Below are positions 1,285-63,370 of a stretch of DNA of 64,000 nt, piece after piece (within the stretch, counting starts at the first letter, position 1; the number at the start of each line of letters is the position of its first letter). Origin of the DNA: Atopsyche davidsoni. Its lineage: Eukaryota > Arthropoda > Insecta > Trichoptera > Hydrobiosidae. A program made the translations under genes and the position numbers. The stretch is from the NCBI GenBank assembly GCA_022113835.1, contig JAILWY010000006.1, positions 7,936,001-8,000,000 of the forward strand, written 5' to 3'. The notes under the pieces were generated by a model. It had not been told where the DNA came from and searched no databases. It saw only the letters and a list, made by a program, of their open reading frames with translations.

Positions 1285-1936
1285 TTTTCTGAGAGTTTCT
1301 TTAAATCATCTTCTATGTGTGAACTAATGTGCCTAATCATATTAGTAATAATATAATAAACCCGTAATGGGTAATAAATACGCATCTGATTGACGTTAAT
1401 CAAAAAATAGACATATGTTACAGAGATGTCTTATTTTTTAACCACATTTAAATATCTCGTTGCATATTACTTATTAAAAAAAGGTTTATATACTTTAAGT
1501 TCAAAATCTGTGAAACTGTTCAATTTAGATACAGTTATTTGTTACTACCATAATGTATTAATAAGAGTGTCTCATGATATTGATAATATTTTTTATACTT
1601 TTGTATCTTATTTATATTGTATGGTTATGAGACATTTCACAAACAACCAAATGAAAGATCATATTTATTTTACCAAAATTTTATTGTTGCATATATATAT
1701 AATTTTAATAAGAACAGTCCTATAAAAATAAAAATAATTAATTACTAAATTAATAAACCATACAAACGATATTCATTATAGCACGTCCAAAGAAAAAGTC
1801 AGTTTTATTCTACGGATAGTATTTGTAAAATTTTCAGTATGCCAACTTGAGATTTATTACAAGCCAATATTAATGCATTATCCTAACCACTTGGCTGTTT
1901 ATATTTGTTGCCTTGGTTTATAAGAACGTAGAAAGC

Positions 1937-4900
1937 TTACAGGATCACCGCTTTCGGGATAGCCCGCATGTAGCACACGACGAAGTCCCATGCGGCAAGA
2001 TCGTCGATGTTGAAAGCGTCGAGGTTCTTCATGCAAACCCTGAAAGCGAAGTACTTGTCGGCGTTTAGGGGTGAGTTAGGGTTGTCTATGAGTCCACTTG
2101 AGATGAATTGGCCACCCGATAGAATCTTACTGATTTTCAGCATACAGAGGACGTAATTCCTCTTGACCGTGTCGGACACGGAGAAGTCTCTCTCTCGAAG
2201 CTTGTCGGCATCTTCTTCACTAATTCCAGTCTGGTCAATGCAATTTTTTACTCTGCTGCTGTGCATTGATTTAAAATTTTCATTAGAAGACGCGATCTGA
2301 ATATGAAATAACAAAAATGTTTTATTTGCATATTATTTTGAATAAATTATTGGCTCGCTAGCTCAGTGGTAATAACGCTAACTTTTTATAGAGTGCGTAA
2401 CCAGTTCTGACATGTGAATTCCAAACTGATTTAATCTAACTCACACCTTTTTCGGTTAAGTCAGAGAAGATTTGTATTTACGTTGCATATTTTTTATAAC
2501 ATTCAATAAATTAATGTATGTGGGTTAATAGTGTTCAAATCACTGAAAATTAATATGACGTCTTTTTGCAATAGCTTTATTCAATTTATGTTAAGAAAAA
2601 AATAATAATTCATCCCAAAAATATTTGCATTGAAATGGTAGTGTAGATAAACTCAGGTGAAGCTTTGAAGGTTAAAAATAACTCTATAGGTTTTGTCGTT
2701 TTTCTTATTCATTTAATATTGCTCTTGGAATTTTTGGAGTTGAATTTTTTTTATTATTTATCAAATTTTAACTTTTTTTTGCAGTGTATTTATAATAATA
2801 AAGAATAAATTACCGTTGGAAGCTTATCTGGTTCTTGCGGCTTTGTATAAGAAACATTGTTAGCAGGCATATCCTGGTAATTATATTTAAATTAACAAAA
2901 TTGAATTAGCATATATTTTCTATGAATAATTGGTATATACATGTATGTATACAATATGTTAATAATTTCCATTTAAAAAATATATACCTTTTGAGGTGTG
3001 TTTAAGTCTTGTGACTTTGTATCCGTTGCTTTCTGAGACGAAAAATCCTGTAAATTATATTTTTGTTAAAATATATTTTAAAAATAAATATTAAAGTGAA
3101 AAAAAATTACTTAATAGTTATTTACAAATGTACAAATGTACTTTTTTACCTTTGGTATAATATCTGCTCCTTGTGGCTTTGTATTCGAAACATTAGACGT
3201 GCCCTGTGAAAAATTCAACATTTTGTAGCAAATATTTTTCATCACCTATTAGTGATAATACAAACGTGATAAATGTTAAAAAAATTATTTTGAGATGATT
3301 TGATATTTATGGCTATATATTTGATGCACTGTGAATGAAATCATTCTGTTAATTTAATGTATTTGATCTTACAAGAGGCGTATCTGGTTTTTGTGATTCG
3401 GAATTTTTATTTTTCTGGGCAGACGTATCCTGTAAATTATATTTGATTATTAAAACATTTAATGAATATATCAGAAAACTATAAAAAATTATCGCTCTGA
3501 AGCTTTTTAAAATATATAATATATTCATAAATCTCCAATAAAAATGATCAAACTTTTTACCTTTGGAATCATATCTGATTCTTTTGGCTTTGTATTTGAA
3601 GACTTGTTACTGGACAAATCCTGTAATTTACATTAAAGTTCATTAATCATGAGTATTTATTGCTTGGAGCGTACTTTTTATTTTGAAAAACTGTAAAACT
3701 CTTATTTGTAAAAATACATTACAAAAAACTTAAGCTGATGGTGAAAAAATTGTGAAAAATTATATTTTTAGAAATAAATCATATTTAATGATTTATATTG
3801 CTTAGAGGTGGTTTATAATTGTAGAAACTGGTAATTGTGCCTACCTTTGGAGATGTATCGACCTTTTGTAGCTATGTATTTGTAGCAGTAGGAGCGGACG
3901 TATCATGAATATTGTATTCAATTCGTCAAAAAATACTTTTTAATAAATAATCTTGCATATTTTTACAGAGGTTTAAAAATAATTGGTGATTTAAGAAGTT
4001 GTTTATTATCCTTACCTTTCTAGACAGATCTGCTTCTTGTTGCTTTGTATTTGTAGCATTATGTGTGGACGTAACCTATATGATAATAAATTTGTTAAAA
4101 ATTAGTACTTTTTTTGTAAATATTCTTACAAATGTTCACTAATGCGTAAAAGTAATTCGTAATTGTAAAATCTTTCAAATGTGCCTACCTTTGGAGACGG
4201 ATCTGCTTCTTGTGGATTTGTATTTGTAGCAGTGTGAGCGGACGATTCCTGTTCATTATATTTAACCATTTTTTATTAAAAAATAAATTATAAAAATATA
4301 TTTTTCAATTGTTAACGCATATACATTTTTTTAAATATTTTTTAAATTATTGTAGCTTTGTATTTGGAGCTTTATGAGAGAATGTTTCTTGTAAATGATA
4401 TTAAGGTTAAAATAAAACTTAAGATAGTTAATGATTTAGTGGATGCTGTTAATAATTGTTTAAGTTTAAAAAAAATCCATAATATTACCTTTGGAACCAT
4501 ATCTGTTCCTTGTGGATCCGTATTATTATTAGCGAACGTTTTCTGTAAATTTTATAAAAAATTAAGCAATATGTTAATTTCCTTGAGATTTTATATAATT
4601 AGATATTGCCATAGAAGGCAAGCTACACTTCATTACAAGTAAAAATAATAATAATATATATTCTAACAATAACTTACCCCTGGTTTGGACTCTGATTCTT
4701 TTGGCATCATATGCGTTGATTTTTTTATAAGGGTAACCTGTTAATATTGTTATTATTAAAGTTTACGCATGCTACATAAAAGTATTTAAAAACTATCAAA
4801 TTAGGGAAAGCCAATCTTTTTATTTACTAAAAATATTTTTTAAAACTACAATTATTTTTTATCATTCATCTATCTAAATTTGCCATAATTACCGAGACTT

Positions 4901-5705
4901 AAACGTCTCTACTTACTAAAATTATAAGAACTTTATTAAGATTTTCTGTTAAATTATTTATAGCCCATCTTACGCCGTTACAAATAAATAATAATGGGAT
5001 TTGTGCCGTAAAAATTAGGTTTTAAATTGTCAATGTCAGCAAAAAATATTAGGGGGCATGAGACACAAATGAAAATCTACTCTTACGAGACCTATTTTGC
5101 CAGGTCATCATCAAAATTCAGGAGTTCGAAAATATATCATATTATACCATAAATTAATTTTAAAAAGTTGGTCGTAAGTACAGTTGGTTTTTTTTTAATC
5201 AATTTGATTAATGCAACAAATCAGGGATTACCTCTGGAGATGGAAGTGGTTTTATGCCCAATGAAATACTTGATGATACACTCTGCAAAAAACGTTTAAA
5301 TTATTTGTAGGTAATTACCTAAATCAATCAATCAATCAATTGTTTCATAATTATGAAACAATTGATTTGATAATCTTTTATAAAAACCTGACATATTTTA
5401 TGATTAAATTTATTTGTTTCGCTGTAGATGTTGTATTAAATACATCACGTTTAAACATAAGATATTTATTCACTTACTGCTGTTTCCTTGTTGCAGTAAA
5501 ATATATATTTAATCTATAATAAAAGTTAAATAAATATTTTAAACCACTGGGCAAGATTTAAAGCTGTTTACAGAAGAAACATATACGACGCTCTTGAATT
5601 ATATCTAACCAATAACTAGTTATTATATAAAAAGGTAGCATGTAACTTTATTCTGACAAGGTATTTTTGTTTTAAGCATTAGGAATAAAAAAACCTTGAA
5701 AAGTA

Positions 5706-5779
<74 letters not shown>

Positions 5780-6444
5780 CATGCTATAGGTAACTATAAC
5801 ATACCCTTGGTTTCTTGTTTGATTCTTGGGGCTTCTTATCCAAAGGATTTGTTGTAGAAATTCCCTGCAATTTTCGTTAATACTTATAAAAAATAAAATA
5901 GAAATAATTTATTATGACGACAAGAATATTTTTTAAAAAAAATTTGATAAACATTTTTATGAATAAAATTTCAATTAATTTTATTAATAAAAATAACTTC
6001 TGAAAATCGATGAAATTCTAATATTTTATAGTTTATTACAAAAATAATTGACATGGAGCTATTTTTCTCTTGATTAAATAACAGCAGTCAACGAACAAAT
6101 AATATGTACTTATAAGTCATAATTTTTTTTTTAATTCAAACACTTTGAATAATATTTGTTGTATACAAAGGACCAAAAATGTCAATAAACTGTTATAAGA
6201 TATTATATGATTTCATATTTAATTATTAAATAATTGAGTATTCTGGCTGACAACTTACCACAGAAGATGTATCATTTTCTTTTGGTTTGGTATTTAACAT
6301 AATGTTTACTGCCATTCCCTGCAAAATCATAGAAAAATATAAAATACTTTTTTTTTATTTACATCGATTGCGTTGTCAATCAAATCAATTATTGTATACC
6401 TGAATGATAAAAACTGAAACAAAAACTACAATAAAAAACTTCAT
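1937..6444 (-). CDS. Minus-C OBP with amplified linker micro-exons, OBP gene 2
   Basis: Predicted secreted protein of 366 residues. The signal exon is 6400-6444 (MKFFIVVFVSVFIIQ). Twelve linker exons follow: 6259-6318, 5805-5864, 5232-5282, 4678-4737, 4489-4542, 4189-4248, 4016-4075, 3561-3620, 3373-3429, 3150-3203, 2988-3047, 2814-2873. Each has 17-20 codons, is phase 0 at both ends, and has AG acceptors and mostly gtaa/gtat donors. Many share the pattern S-x(4)-NTKPQE-x-D-x(2)-PK. The last exon, 1937-2296, holds the OBP domain with C1 (NCIDQ), C3 (VLCMLK), C4 (RVCMKN) and C6 (VVCYMR). Paralogues have one linker, so this ~230-residue Ser/Thr/Asn/Lys-rich stalk is unusual. Because every linker exon is symmetric, skipping any of them would keep the frame. 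Exon calls come from splice signals and mutual similarity; transcripts are needed to confirm which are used. Confidence 0.75.
2352..2425 (+). repeat. tRNA-like A-box sequence, possible SINE head or tRNA relic
   Basis: Contains TAGCTCAGTGGT, a good tRNA box A, and about 50 bases later a weak box B resemblance (GTGAATTCC). The arms do not fold into a convincing cloverleaf. It lies inside the last intron of OBP gene 2. Confidence 0.3.
3845..3904 (-). pseudogene. Decayed linker exon of OBP gene 2
   Basis: Aligns with the neighbouring linker exons over 60 bases but has an in-frame TAG in place of the lysine codon of the NTKP motif. Its acceptor reads TG where siblings have AG. The donor is intact. 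Skipping it would not disturb the frame. Confidence 0.65.
4346..4393 (-). pseudogene. Second decayed linker exon of OBP gene 2
   Basis: Retains the NTKxQ portion of the linker motif, followed at once by TAA. No donor is present and the 3' third is gone. Confidence 0.5.
5334..5367. repeat. 34-bp perfect palindrome
   Basis: Arms 5,334-5,350 and 5,351-5,367 are exact reverse complements centred on CATAATTATG, next to a short (ATCA)n run. It lies in an intron of OBP gene 2. Confidence 0.85.
5710..5776. repeat. (TA)n microsatellite
   Basis: Uninterrupted TA dinucleotide run of about 65 bases inside an intron of OBP gene 2. Confidence 0.95.
6001..6135 (+). mobile_element. Fragment of the MITE-like element at 6,867-7,403
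   Basis: About 130 bases match the interior of the nearby element (7,105-7,235) at high identity, including TATAGTTTATTA and CAACGAACAAATAATATG. Neither terminal inverted repeat is present. It sits in intron DNA of OBP gene 2. Confidence 0.6.
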
Positions 6445-6528: not shown

Positions 6529-6537
6529 TTTTATATA
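6529..6537 (-). promoter_or_regulatory. TATA box of OBP gene 2
   Basis: TATATAAAA on the minus strand, about 85 bases upstream of the start codon. Confidence 0.65.
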
Positions 6538-6866: not shown

Positions 6867-7403
6867 CAGGCTGTCCAAACAGGGCATCGGGTATTTGTTA
6901 GTTCAGTAAAACAAAAACTACTAGTAATCAAGTTTTTTTTTATTGTTGATTATAAGAATACAAAATGGAAAATTATTTTAAAAAGATGATTTTATTCAAA
7001 TAGTGACTTATTCAAATAGTAATTTCAAAATTCAAGCGATTTGCGTAGTCCGTATCCATAAATTCTTGCATTCATTGAATTGTATACGCTTTAAATGCAA
7101 ATCTTTCTTTAAAATCGTTGAATTTCTGATACTTTATAGTTTATTATAAAAATTATTGACACGGGGTTATTTTTCTCTTGATTATATAACAGCAATCAAC
7201 GAACAAATAATATGTACTTATAAGTCGTCAATTTTTTTTTTTGAAGAGTGCCAGCAGAGTAATGGTCATTATTTGGATATCATCTTTACAAAATAATTTT
7301 ACATTTTTTATTCTTATAATCAACAATTAAAAAAAATAAAATTATTATTAGTAGTTTTTGTTTTACTGAACTAACAAATACCTGATACTCTGTTTGGACA
7401 CAC
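6867..7403. mobile_element. MITE-like element with ~110-bp terminal inverted repeats
   Basis: The left end begins CAGGCTGTCCAAACAG and the right end, read in reverse, begins GTGTGTCCAAACAG. Homology continues through TATTTGTTAGTTCAGTAAAA and beyond for about 110 bases on each side. There is no coding capacity. A TA-rich flank and the CAGGCTGTCC start fit Tc1/mariner-type MITEs, but the family call is an inference. Most of the gap between OBP genes 2 and 3 is this element. Confidence 0.65.
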
Positions 7404-7927: not shown

Positions 7928-8762
7928 TTATATAATCCTTGTTTCAGGAATGGCCTTCATATAGCGCGTTACGAAATTCCACCCTTTGTAGTATAGATTG
8001 TTGGTCATGTTTGCAAATTTCGTGCATTCGTCGAAGGCCTTGTCCTCCCGCAGGCTCGAGGCTTCATAGAAAGTCGAAATCCCTGCCTTGTAGAAGCCTC
8101 CCTCGTCCGACAGGATGTCTCCCCTTTTCAGCATGCATCTCACAGAATCCTTCTTGAACTGGTTCGGCTCGGAATAGTCTCCTTTCCGCAACCTCTTGAG
8201 GGTGTTCAGAGGAATCCCGCTAAGGCTTCTGCAACTACCGACGTTATTTTCATACTTTATCATGTAATTAATTTTCGTAGAATTATCCTGAAATAATAAA
8301 AATAAAATACAAAAGCGTGTTTTACAATTATATAGTTTTTATGTAAATTAAATCCTCTTTATAAATTTGATATTAGTAGAGTGTATCGAAAAAAAATTGA
8401 GATATTCACTTACCACTGTTTTTCGTAGTTTTTTCTTCGTGGTCTTAACGGAATTAATCTGAAAATATATTAAATTTAATGAAATATGCAAGCGTATAAA
8501 AGATTAATAATCGCTTGTGTAGATTTTTTATCCGTCAACTTTATAAAATTAATAAATTAAATAAGATTCTAATATAATACTGTACATTATGAAACAACGT
8601 TTTTTAAACAGCCTATAAATACAATATATTAAAACCTAGTTCATGCCGATTTAGCTTATTTTTAATACAGTGATGAAATATATATATTAATTTAAGCATA
8701 AACAAAATAGTTACCTGATTGAGCAAACATACAGTAAAAAGTATGAAAACAAAGATCTTCAT
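7928..8762 (-). CDS. Minus-C OBP lacking the sixth cysteine, OBP gene 3
   Basis: Three exons: 8715-8762 (signal peptide MKIFVFILFTVCLLNQ), 8414-8458 (15-codon linker rich in Lys) and 7928-8287 (OBP domain). All junctions are phase 0 with canonical borders. The domain has C1 (GSCRS), C3 (VRCMLK) and C4 (DECTKF). At the C6 place, FVTRYMKA replaces the family pattern FxxCYMKA: the codon is CGC where paralogues have TGC. C4 would then lack its usual C6 partner. The reading frame and splice sites are otherwise intact, so this is a derived gene or an early pseudogene. Confidence 0.82.
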
Positions 8763-16408: not shown

Positions 16409-17399
16409 TTATATAATTATTGACTCTGGGTTTGTCATCATGTAGCAGACCAAAAAATTCCATCCTATTTCAGTCACTGATTTGAACCAGTTAGTAACTT
16501 TTGCGCATCTATGAAAGGTAATAGCTGCGATCGCATCACGCTTAGAAGTGAACTTTTCGATTCCGCCAAGGAACAGTTCTCCTTTTGCTGACAGGATGTT
16601 ATAACTCCTCAGCATGCAGGCGACGTACAACTTCTCTTCAACAGTCGGCATAAGAAACTCTCCTGCCTGTAGCCTGGCTTTCTGTGCGCGGTTCACTCTG
16701 CTCTCGGTTGTGCAGATTCTTCTGTAGTTAAAATACGTCATCTCTTTATTGTATTTCACACCTTTACTCTAAAATAATTTTCAAAAAGATAGTATATAAA
16801 CTTAAGTCCATACATAATTTTTTTTAAATATTCACACTTCATTAGTTCACAGTTTATAATAATTCATACCACTGAATATTCTCCGTGTATTTTCTTACTC
16901 GTGGACGATGTTCTTATGTTTGCAGATGAATCCTGTAAATTATATTAAAAAAAACTTTTACATAGCTTTCACCTCACCAACATCTTCAAAGTGATTTCCA
17001 CAAAGCATTCACCTTACGTATATCAACCGAAAAATATAAGAGATACTTTAACATAGCTTTCGCCTCACATATATCAACTGGAAAAATATTAGAGAGACTT
17101 TCAAATAGCTTTCACCTCACGTACATTAACCAAAATATATTAGAGAAACTTTCACATAGTTTTGACTTAAAGAATATGAACTCAATAATATCAGAGTGAC
17201 TTTCAAATAGCTTTCACCCCACGTAGATCAACCCAAAAGTATCTGAAAGACTTTCACTTTAACGAATATCAACTCAAATATATCAGAGAGATTAATATAA
17301 ATATAACCTTATTCTCAACACTGATAAAATATTATTTTAAAGTTACACTACCTGAGTATATAACACAATAAAAATTAAATACTTGCACAAGAAATTCAT
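16409..17399 (-). CDS. Minus-C OBP, OBP gene 7
   Basis: Three exons: 17352-17399 (MNFLCKYLIFIVLYTQ), 16870-16932 (21-codon linker ending GEYSV) and 16409-16768 (OBP domain). Phase is 0 with canonical borders. Cysteines: C1 (RICTTES), C3 (VACMLR), C4 (HRCAKV), C6 (LVCYMM). Sister of gene 6: same exon sizes, the shared ARLQAG motif and the EEKLYVxCMLR block. Intron 1 holds a 51-52-bp tandem repeat absent from the gene 6 intron. Confidence 0.86.
16945..17300. repeat. Minisatellite, ~51-52-bp unit, about seven copies
   Basis: Imperfect repeats of the pattern ACTTTCAAATAGCTTTCACC followed by an AT-rich half ending ATATTAGAGAG; repeat starts are spaced 51-52 bases. It occupies intron 1 of OBP gene 7. 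Confidence 0.8.
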
Positions 17400-18316: not shown

Positions 18317-18808
18317 CTAAACAAGATTTGCATCAGGTAAGGCTTTCAAATAGCACATGACGAAATCAAACGATTCAGTTTCTTTACCGTTGGATAAACC
18401 CGCACGTATCGTGCAGTCTTTGAAAACACTCTCGGTCCTAATGTTCAGTGGAATATCGGTCATCAGTTGAATTTGAGTACTGGAAAATTTTTCATCCTCC
18501 GTCAGGATTTTCATCTTCCTCAGCATGCAGGAGGCGTAAACCAAGTGTTCCCCATGCGGTTTAACCACCTCCCCTCTTCGGAGTTGGATGAGGTTTTTAG
18601 CGGAAATTCGGCTGCGTTGCTGGCAGGTTTTTATAAAATTTGAATGATTCATACTTTTTACATCAATATTCTGAAATTTCAATTAACGCAATAGTATTAA
18701 TTTACGGGTGAAACCGAATTTCAATTTTTTTTAGTTTAATTTTTACAATTTACTTACGTTTTCGTTTGACTTGTTGTCAGTTATGGTCTCTGTCGTGGAA
18801 TTATTAAT
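18317..18808 (-). CDS. Minus-C OBP without a recognisable signal exon, OBP gene 8
   Basis: Two exons seen: 18758-18808 (17-codon linker with several Asn/Thr) and 18317-18670 (OBP domain), both phase 0 with good borders (donor gtaagt, acceptors ttacag and tttcag). Domain cysteines: C1 (KTCQQR), C3 (ASCMLR), C4 (KDCTIR), C6 (VMCYLK). The domain itself is intact. I searched 18,809-19,730 for a short ATG exon with a hydrophobic peptide and a GT donor and found none, and no TATA box at the usual spacing. Either exon 1 is unusual or the gene has lost its 5' end. Confidence 0.72.
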
Positions 18809-19730
18809 CTGTAAATAAATATAAAATATATTGAATTTAATTAATATTATTATTTTTGTATTAATTTCTTCATACAACATGCTATATTTGTCTAGTTGAT
18901 CTTTGAACTTCCTTATATTTTAGAATACGTTGTGTATAAAAAATACTGAACAGCACCGAACACAGACACAATAACTTCTGATTGGTTCCAAATAGCAGCC
19001 GCCATTCAAGTAGATTTCTCGTTTAATTAACCTGAATTAGGGTGTCTGCTACTCATTAAAAAATATTTTTATTCCCAATTAAATTATAGGTCATATCAAT
19101 GATAAGATAACAAAACAGTATCTTATGATATCTTACGCATCATGCAATACGCTCGTTCCAAATATGGAGTAATACTAATCAAATCATTCCGTTTTAGATA
19201 AGTAATAACAAATAACTACTATTAGCTACGTATATTTCAATCAATAGACGTATGATTTTACCTTTGCCGAGAGAATAGTCACGTGTTTTCGGTCACGTTC
19301 CTGTACTATTAGTAGAAGCGCAAATAATATTTTTAGCTTTTAATAAATTTATATGTAAACTAAATTTTTATTATTTATAACCTTTTTGTCATATATATTT
19401 ATGTTGCATTATTTTATGTCACAAAATAATCGACAAGAAAAAACAGTAACAATTTTTTGTTGTTTGTACAAGTCTACCAAAAAGTAATCTTTATTAAAAA
19501 CATACGTGTAAAATAAAATAATTAAATATATTGCTCATTAATTTTTTACTACCTAATAAGTGTAATTTTACAAAATATCGAACTGCGGTTTACTTAGAAA
19601 AATCTATACCCATAATTCACTTCCGCTATTTAAAAACAAACACTGCTCTTAACTATTTATTTGTCGAATATACAATAATATGTTGAATAAGTATTAAAAA
19701 TTCTTGGGTTAGTCGATAATCTTGCAAATA

Positions 19731-22440: not shown

Positions 22441-23121
22441 TCAGACGTAGGAGTGGTTGGGGTTCTTCTCGTGGTAGCACTTGGCCATCTTCCAGGCGGA
22501 GTTGTAAGGCTTCTCTCCTCTCTCCCCCATGCAGGCGTCGATGGCCTTCTCGACCTCCTCCCTGTTGGCGTCCTCGGGCAGCTTGGACATGGCGACGTCC
22601 TTCTGGAAGACTCCGTCCTCGGTGATCAGGTCGCTCTTGCGGAACATGCAGAACACGTACTGCTGGAGGTCGTCGTCGTCGTTGGAGAAGTCTCCCTTCC
22701 TCAGCTTCTGCACCTTCTCGTCGGCCACTCCCGTCTCCGCCTGACACTCCTGGTTGTTTTTCCTGAGCTTTGCCTTTTGCTCGTCGCTGAGTCCTCCCTG
22801 TAGATATAAAAGCGCGATCTTCATATTATAGTAAAAAATTTGAAAAGTTTAACTGAGACAATATTAGATATGAACAAAATGTCTTTTTGTGAGAACTCTC
22901 TCTGAGATTTCTTTGAAGGCACAGACACAAAAATATAGCCGCACCAATTTGCATGCTCACACTTGCTGTTCACATGATTTTATTCAGATTTCTCTCTCGG
23001 ATTATTTGAGTAAATTTTTCTCCAAGATTACAAAATTAAGAATATATTATTATAGTTCCATTCTTACCGAAACAGCAGCGACCAGGACGGCGAAAGCGAC
23101 GACTGCCAAGAAGGACTTCAT
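22441..23121 (-). CDS. Minus-C OBP of the two-exon type, OBP gene 10
   Basis: Two exons: 23068-23121 (start of the signal peptide, MKSFLAVVAFAVLVAAVS) and 22441-22797 (mature domain from GGLSDEQ to SYV). Total 136 residues. Cysteines: C1 (NQECQAE), C3 (VFCMFRK), C4 (DACMGER), C6 (AKCYHEK). There is no linker exon, unlike genes 1-9. Codons are strongly G/C-ending while the flanks are AT-rich, which suggests high expression. An ATG just before the exon 2 acceptor (MKIALLYLQ) is intronic and not the start. Mature protein is identical to gene 11; the signal peptide differs at one residue (V against I). Confidence 0.92.
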
Positions 23122-24099: not shown

Positions 24100-24800
24100 A
24101 TGAAGTCCTTCTTGGCAATCGTCGCTTTCGCCGTCCTGGTCGCCGCTGTTTCGGTAAGAATGGAACTATAATAATATATTCTTAATTTTGTAATCTTAGT
24201 GAAAAATTTGCTCAAATAATCCGAGAGAGAAATCTGAACAAATCATGTGAACAGCAAGTGTGAGCATGCAAATTGGTGCGGCTATATTTTTGCGTCTGTG
24301 CCTTCAAATAAATCTCAGAGAGAGTTCTCACAAAAAGACATTTTGTTCATATCTAATACTGTCTCAGTTAAATTTTTTCCTGAGAATGCTTGCCATTGTT
24401 GCTTTTTATTATAATATTGAAGATCGCGCTTTTATATCTGCAGGGAGGACTCAGCGACGAGCAAAAGGCAAAGCTCAGGAAAAACAACCAGGAGTGTCAG
24501 GCGGAGACGGGAGTGGCCGACGAGAAGGTGCAGAAGCTGAGGAAGGGAGACTTCTCCAACGACGACGACGACCTCCAGCAGTACGTGTTCTGCATGTTCC
24601 GCAAGAGCGACCTGATCACCGAGGACGGAGTCTTCCAGAAGGACGTCGCCATGTCCAAGCTGCCCGAGGACGCCAACAGGGAGGAGGTCGAGAAGGCCAT
24701 CGACGCCTGCATGGGGGAGAGAGGAGAGAAGCCTTACAACTCCGCCTGGAAGATGGCCAAGTGCTACCACGAGAAGAACCCCAACCACTCCTACGTCTGA
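24100..24800 (+). CDS. Minus-C OBP of the two-exon type, OBP gene 11 (inverted copy of gene 10)
   Basis: Exons 24100-24153 and 24444-24800; donor gtaaga, acceptor ctgcag, phase 0. Encodes 136 residues: signal peptide (I at residue 7 where gene 10 has V) and a mature protein identical to gene 10, with the same four cysteines. I see no difference in the 357-base second exon and only two in the first ~130 bases after the stop. It is the only OBP on the plus strand and is divergent (head-to-head) with gene 10 across about 980 bases. Recent inverted duplication or ongoing gene conversion explains the identity. Confidence 0.92.
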
Positions 24801-62454: not shown

Positions 62455-63145
62455 AAAACACATATTTATCATATTAAAAGTAAATTCACAAGAAATAAAA
62501 ATATATTATGTTCGGAAGAAGGGATGTATCTAACTTTTTGCATTTATTTTTTTATGATTGGTGCAGTCAATTTTTCCCAAAACGGACAAGAAGATGATAA
62601 AAAAAAACTCGAGTATGGGACTTGGGCCCTTAACGGTCTGTCAGGACTCACCATGACAGATCCCACAAGGAATGGAACGGAGTCGCGGCCCCCAAAAACA
62701 CATATTTATCATATTAAAAGTAAATTTACAAGAAATAAAAATATATTCTGTTCGGAAGAAGAGATGTATCTAACCTTTTGCATTTAATTTTTTTTGATTG
62801 GTGCCGTCGATTTTTCGCAAAACGGACCAGAAAATGTACATAAAAAATAATGGCCCTTAACGGTCTGTCAGGACTCACCATGACAGATCCCACAAGGAAT
62901 AGAACGGAGTCGCGGCCCCCAAAAACACATATTTATCATATTAAAAGTAAATTTACAAGAAATAAAAAAATATTCTGTTCGGAAGAAGGGATGTATCTAA
63001 CCTTTTGCATTAAATTTTTTTTTATTGGTGCAGTCGATTTTTCGCAAAACGGACCAGAAAATGATCAAAAAAAATAATGGCCCTTAATGGTCTGTCAGGA
63101 CTCACCATGACAGATCCCACAAGGAATGGAAGGGAGTCGCGGCCC
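62455..63145 (+). repeat. Satellite-like tandem repeat, ~227-240-bp unit, three copies
   Basis: The landmark ACACATATTTATCATATTAA recurs at about 62,459, 62,699 and 62,926 (spacing 240 and 227). Each unit ends in a GC-rich block with GGTCTGTCAGGACTCACCAT and GGAACGGAGTCGCGGCCCCC. The hairpin TCTGTCA...TGACAGA is inside that block. A fourth GC block at 63,079-63,140 begins a new, different GC-rich sequence. The frames open through the repeat are not convincing genes. Confidence 0.85.
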
Positions 63146-63370
63146 CCAAGGTCAGCGGAACTCTCAGCTGGAACTCCAGCTGCAGGGCCCCAGCTTCCGG
63201 GGGGGCTTCTTGCGTGTCCTTGGGAGGGCCCATGGCTGGCGTGTGGTGAGGGGGGGGGGGGGAGGAGGATGCGTGGCTCAGACGACCGACCGGGACGAGA
63301 GCTCGGACGCTACTGAGGGCAGCCAGGCCGGCCAATGGCGAGCGGAGCCGACAGGGGCGTGCGCCAAGGC
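63146..63370. other. GC-rich island with a 12-base G run
   Basis: Follows the satellite directly. Contains GAGGGGGGGGGGGGAGGAGG near 63,249, a potential G-quadruplex, and several CpG sites. An open frame runs through it without recognisable domains. Could be a promoter island or the body of the element whose end makes the satellite. Confidence 0.4.

Follow-up and report, generated by a model that had tools for sequence, protein, structure and literature searches.

How does an odorant binding protein (OBP) gene come to carry twelve exons of 60 nucleotides (nt) or fewer between its signal peptide and its C-terminal domain, and are these exons joined into a messenger RNA (mRNA)? The question is raised by a locus of the trichopteran Atopsyche davidsoni (GenBank assembly GCA_022113835.1, contig JAILWY010000006.1), of which we analyzed the 64,000 nt from position 7,936,001 to 8,000,000, hereafter called the window, in whose numbering all positions are given. 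A single gene of 14 exons and 13 introns (81–522 nt), with 1101 coding nt for 366 residues, can be read on the minus strand between 6444 and 1937. A signal exon is followed by twelve linker exons of 51–60 nt and then by the exon of a PBP/GOBP domain. The structure of this array is confirmed and its exons are very probably in use; we regard it as probable that one phase-0 linker exon has been multiplied and that most of its copies are spliced into one secreted OBP with a long tail.

All exons of the gene lie on the minus strand. Exon 1 (6400–6444) encodes the signal peptide MKFFIVVFVSVFIIQ, and the last exon (1937–2296) supplies 119 residues and the stop codon. The linker exons E2 to E13 measure 60, 60, 51, 60, 54, 60, 60, 60, 57, 54, 60 and 60 nt, each a multiple of three, and all twelve have AG/GT borders, phase 0 at both ends and no stop codon. 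Small symmetrical exons hereby make up 12 of the 14 exons and 696 of the 1101 coding nt, and the twelve intact phase 0-0 exons announced in the original prediction are borne out by the gene model.

The array exons are recognizably related to one another. Profiles from which one exon at a time was left out recovered 11 of the 12, namely E2 (6259–6318, E 1.4e-06), E3 (5805–5864, E 9.6e-09), E5 (4678–4737, E 9.3e-05), E6 (4489–4542, E 3.7e-10), E7 (4189–4248, E 1.4e-14), E8 (4016–4075, E 1e-09), E9 (3561–3620, E 1e-14), E10 (3373–3429, E 7e-05), E11 (3150–3203, E 4.9e-11), E12 (2988–3047, E 2.7e-08) and E13 (2814–2873, E 5.4e-14). The exception is E4 (5232–5282), the least certain exon, which retains little of the loose consensus DMSTNNATNTKPQESDTTPK of the array. 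The motif NTKPQE-x-D, which had been said to be common to all copies, thus holds as a loose consensus only, since NTKPQE itself is absent from some of them. Moreover, blocks that comprise both exon and intron can be aligned with each other, in 18 pairs at E < 1e-3. The best pair (E 1.7e-44) shows 67% identity over 405 columns at an offset of 177 nt, and other pairs are offset further, across several exons. The array exons are thus tandem copies that brought intron DNA along, which supports the predicted multiplication of a linker exon. Divergence from the consensus is lowest in E7–E9 (0.15–0.18) and highest in E4 (0.49) and E2 (0.40). The low values in the middle would roughly fit an unequal exchange that homogenises the interior of the array, a pattern into which E10 (0.37) does not fit.

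Not every copy has stayed intact. Two dead copies had been predicted, and both are dead: copy A (about 4346–4398 on the minus strand, borders approximate; profile E 0.0083) has an in-register stop and neither an acceptor AG nor a donor in place, and copy B (3839–3913, minus strand; profile E 6e-08) has an in-register stop and has lost the acceptor AG while keeping the donor. The count, however, is probably three, since a truncated copy C with in-register stops (about 3288–3355, minus strand, borders approximate; profile E 0.11) sits inside an aligned duplicate block (3923–3573 versus 3639–3298).

A likely source of the array is provided by the neighbors. Seven nearby sister genes have three exons each, for signal, one linker of 45–72 nt and domain, all in phase 0; their exons were positioned by eye, after which phase and splice sites were verified. 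The single phase-0 linker ascribed to the sisters is hence found in all seven models, one of which, at 0.8 kb, is truncated by the window edge ahead of its stop. The profile of the array exons gave five matches outside the intact copies and dead copy B: dead copies A and C, and the linkers of three of the seven sisters, in the right place and on the right strand (E 0.004, 0.027 and 0.18). Since these linkers are matched, if with weak scores, the array may descend from a linker of the sister type.

Are the copies used? The 232 codons of the twelve exons contain no stop, whereas base shuffling per exon gave 14.6 on average and never zero in 2000 trials. Under a neutral decay model, all twelve exons stayed open in 1 of 2000 runs with the base composition of the exons and in none of 2000 with that of the introns, and no run kept more than seven exons with both an open frame and AG/GT borders. 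We then scanned the array for open phase-0 micro-exons with splice matrices trained on the seven sister genes. Ten candidates were obtained, eight of which are array exons (E2, E5, E6, E8, E9, E10, E11 and E13). Controls gave far fewer, with a mean of 0.78 (maximum 4) in 18 stretches of equal length, a mean of 0.66 (maximum 4) in 100 base shuffles, and one on the opposite strand. The two other candidates, 5513–5478 (36 nt) and 6413–6363, which overlaps exon 1, are within the control range. The former, on the minus strand, is a candidate for an open exon of phase 0, IKYIFYCNKETA, whose splice scores are good; about one match of this kind would be expected by chance.

The duplicated blocks also allow exons to be compared with the introns that were copied with them. 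Identity is equal in both (0.687 and 0.688 in the 18 overlapping alignments), but the 1203 exon columns contain only 10 gap events and the 2632 intron columns 154, which is 0.8 versus 5.9 indels per 100 columns, or about sevenfold fewer in exons; as the alignments overlap, these figures describe a contrast and do not amount to a test. Finally, the content of guanine plus cytosine (GC) is 38.5% in the array exons and 22.2% in the introns, the sister linkers lying at 33–51%. Dead copies A and C, with their approximate borders, have fallen to 23% and 21%. It is the absence of stops, the decay model, the splice scan, the scarcity of exon indels and the GC content that make use of the exons very probable.

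The pattern of change suggests what is being kept. Across the twelve exons the ratio of nonsynonymous to synonymous differences (pN/pS) is 0.88, which lies within neutral simulations that forbid stops only, and the mismatch per codon position is almost flat (0.465, 0.412 and 0.472). Positive selection was considered and set aside: the six youngest copies have a pN/pS of 1.17, against 0.97 or 0.89 in simulations, of which 85.5% and 93.8%, respectively, did not exceed 1.17. Amino-acid change between copies thus appears near neutral and not clearly diversifying. Few indels in the exons, no stops and amino-acid change that fits neutrality together suggest that frame and splice sites are selected while the letters drift, so that the sequence itself would hardly be held. 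The eleven exons after E2 contain only 3 aromatic or cysteine residues, compared with 7.5 (standard deviation 2.4) in simulations. Certain third positions of the ACAAAGCCACAAGAA core are well conserved, which could equally reflect a splicing signal or the recency of the copies. Likewise, the lysine at the end of six of the twelve units falls in an AAG|GT donor context and may reflect splicing instead of protein function.

The predicted product would be a secreted, minus-C-like OBP behind a long tail. If the signal peptide is cleaved after residue 19, as we assumed, the stalk of about 230 residues proposed in the original prediction comes to a hydrophilic tail of 228, with 32 serines and 26 threonines (58 together), 25 prolines, 30 lysines and 21 asparagines, a pI of 9.2 and six N-x-S/T sites; E2 would additionally bear the cleavage region. 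From this composition the tail is likely to be disordered, and O-glycosylation is possible. That the domain is an OBP with four cysteines, as had been proposed, agrees with its match to PF01395 (PBP/GOBP) at 33.7 bits (curated cut-off 22; E 4.4e-08), a cut-off exceeded by all ten domain exons tested in the window, and with cysteines at 19, 51, 88 and 108 of the domain, to which cysteines of the sisters correspond. The number of cysteines is exactly four in four of the seven sisters, three in one and five in two. The one with three, at 7928–8287 (minus strand), has an arginine in place of the last cysteine that is present in most others. By eye, the sister alignment assigns the four cysteines to C1, C3, C4 and C6, with C2 and C5 missing, which is the minus-C pattern. 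A structure model of the domain, built on 11 sequences, shows six helices at a mean pLDDT of 88.6, and nine of the first ten Foldseek matches in the PDB are OBPs (TM 0.67–0.78), the best being OBP4 of Chrysopa pallens. A sequence search of the PDB had a weak best match, the odorant binding protein ASP5 (E 0.026). The domain presumably binds a ligand. None of 2023 candidates for the full 366-residue product passed in the protein collection searched, which seems poor in insect proteins, so that the lack of orthologs there means little.

Taken together, we propose that a minus-C-like OBP gene of a tandem cluster has acquired a longer N-terminal tail because its phase-0 linker exon was duplicated repeatedly, along with adjoining intron DNA. 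The duplication itself can be read from the aligned blocks, unequal crossing-over would be its means, and the linker of the array and those of the sisters may go back to the same ancestral linker. As all copies are phase 0-0, the gain or loss of any of them would leave the reading frame intact. To judge from the preserved splice sites, the open frames and the scarcity of indels, most copies are probably spliced in order into one mRNA, whose product of 366 residues before cleavage would have a flexible, basic tail rich in serine, threonine, proline, asparagine and lysine, followed by the C-terminal OBP domain. Selection would hold the frame, the splice sites and a low content of aromatic and cysteine residues, and no particular sequence. 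The tail most likely works through bulk properties such as length, charge and glycans, and might, for example, retain the OBP domain within a secretion or within extracellular matrix.

Several observations weigh against this proposal. The gene is known here from genomic sequence alone. The decay model presumes a star tree that starts from a consensus, and the splice thresholds, under which E3 (weak splice scores), E4 (weak acceptor, 0.2), E7 (acceptor) and E12 (donor) fall, were set by hand after viewing scores that included array sites. Within the duplicated blocks, AT-rich introns raise both chance identity and gaps, 4 of the 10 gap events in exons have lengths that are not divisible by three, and dead copy B still has an exon-like GC content of 43%. 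The match to the sister linkers is weak as well: four of the seven linkers are unmatched, and in two of the three that are matched about half of the match stems from the 14 nt of acceptor intron in the profile. Moreover, no Foldseek match of the domain reaches E 0.001, the best being 3.2e-03. A neutral pN/pS is equally expected of unused exons, and in this respect the locus might be a relic in which no more than the first copy, or a handful, is still spliced and the remainder are decaying duplicates. A relic would explain the three clearly or probably dead copies, the exon substitutions that accumulate at the intron rate, and the poor support for E4. It would not explain the 232 stop-free codons, the sevenfold scarcity of indels or the coding-like GC of the intact copies, and decay in the simulations left at most seven of twelve copies intact; stops, indels and splice sites thus argue otherwise, and we consider a relic unlikely.

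Alternatively, the gene might generate a pool of tail lengths through many combinations of skipped exons, as schistosome micro-exon genes (MEGs) do. All twelve exons are symmetric and short, several splice sites are weak, and small symmetrical exons are said to permit skipping in MEGs (PMC4350168, consulted in part). However, symmetry follows automatically when one symmetric exon is duplicated and hence is no evidence of skipping. Such combinatorial splicing, which shares the expressed stalk with our proposal so that each may hold in part, seems possible at a rather low probability. We regard as doubtful its broader form, in which the OBP gene has become a micro-exon gene whose exons are freely gained, lost and skipped, with tail lengths that vary in the population and selection that acts on frame and length and hardly on sequence. 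The single linker of the sister proteins could instead suggest that the copies are mutually exclusive, with one linker per mRNA and many OBPs that differ in their N-termini; since copies of phase 0-0 and of a length divisible by three keep the frame without any exclusivity, this is quite improbable. Least of all do we expect the linkers to be leftovers of several OBP genes that were stripped of their signal and domain exons. The locus does belong to a tandem cluster with 11 OBP domain exons, but the blocks that align as duplicates between exon 1 and exon 14 contain linker exons and introns, and no remnant of an OBP domain was detected in 2297–6444, where the best of five matches had an E of 5.6. 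The preferred reading remains a multiplied linker exon whose copies would mostly be joined in one transcript.

The surroundings of the gene add some features. A TATA-like box (TATATAA, 6531–6537, minus strand, from a pattern listing) lies 93 nt upstream of the ATG, the nearest such boxes of the seven sister genes being at -64 to -109, and past the stop codon an AATAAA (1853–1858, minus strand, read by eye) is a possible poly(A) signal. A repeat of 147 nt with 85% identity occurs at 5986–6132, in an intron of the array, and at 7094–7240, upstream of the gene. In the whole window, OBP-domain queries match 12 half-kilobase bins, which we interpreted as 11 domain exons, one of them lying across two bins. 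An eighth OBP gene at 18320–18950 (minus strand) has linker and domain exons, its signal exon not being clear. Two near-identical OBP-domain reading frames lie in inverted orientation at 22444–22848 (minus strand) and 24384–24797 (plus strand), and the former is the strongest PF01395 match among the ten tested (5e-27). In the protein collection one of six candidates for this OBP passed, an insect-like protein, and no viral contig with it was found. The sister gene at 17.4 kb has a 51-bp tandem repeat of about five copies in its first intron (17004–17256), by eye not linker-like, and a 227-bp tandem repeat with 2.3 copies and 95% matches is situated at 62625–63149.

If our proposal is true, a micro-exon gene was born inside an ordinary family with a single linker, and sisters that resemble the ancestor, intact copies and dead ones lie next to each other. 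The origin of micro-exon genes and of disordered tails of secreted proteins would then be testable at one locus, and the range of known OBP forms would be widened. Automatic annotation might well miss such exons. Tandem duplication of symmetric exons is a known mechanism, and its novelty in print for OBPs is not proven; no OBP precedent with micro-exons or exon duplication was found among the matches listed in the literature searched, outside whose scope most subscription papers fall.

The comparisons with known systems draw on parts of the cited papers. OBP genes of the silkworm Bombyx mori have mostly 0–4 introns, the first of which is a phase-0 intron close to where the signal peptide is cleaved (PMC2722677). 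The minus-C OBPs of this species resemble the array gene in the loss of C2 and C5 (here from the alignment by eye), in the phase-0 first intron and in their tandem clusters, whereas the 13 introns and the twelve internal exons of one repeated type set the array gene apart (PMC2722677). The double-domain OBPs of Nasonia and mosquitoes likewise come from OBP clusters whose architecture was remodelled by duplication or fusion, but there the whole domain is doubled and here only the linker exon is multiplied (PMC3428353). Aphid bicycle genes, with about 17 exons on average, encode putative secreted effectors and resemble the array gene in their many small internal exons of one phase and in fast divergence (PMC9168663). 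Their internal exons are in phase 2, however, and those of the array gene are all in phase 0 and belong to an OBP, a different protein (PMC9168663). The predicted likeness to bicycle genes therefore holds for the many small exons of the same phase, and neither for the phase itself nor for the protein.

At the protein level, the salivary glue proteins Sgs1, Sgs3 and Sgs4 of Drosophila, whose C-terminal part we take not to be an OBP, come close to the predicted product. They combine a signal peptide, a repetitive, disordered region rich in proline, threonine and serine, and a conserved C-terminal part, and their repeat number varies; this likeness rests on descriptions of protein repeats and not of exon structure (PMC6352337). 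For gene architecture, the likeness to schistosome MEGs put forward in the original prediction is supported. MEGs consist mostly of very small symmetrical exons, encode secreted proteins and have documented alternative splicing (PMC4350168, PMC10526429), and the array gene would likewise code for a secreted protein mainly by very small symmetrical exons. The host protein and the phylum are unrelated, and the alternative splicing of MEGs is hypothetical in the array gene. The array copies, moreover, look like paralogs of a single exon from the family to which the host gene itself belongs, unlike those of MEGs; since the array exons are likely of OBP origin, homology to MEG families is improbable. 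Among the systems compared, VAL-6, in which a micro-exon portion is joined to a conserved secreted domain, is the nearest architectural parallel to the array gene that we have met (PMC4350168, PMC10526429).

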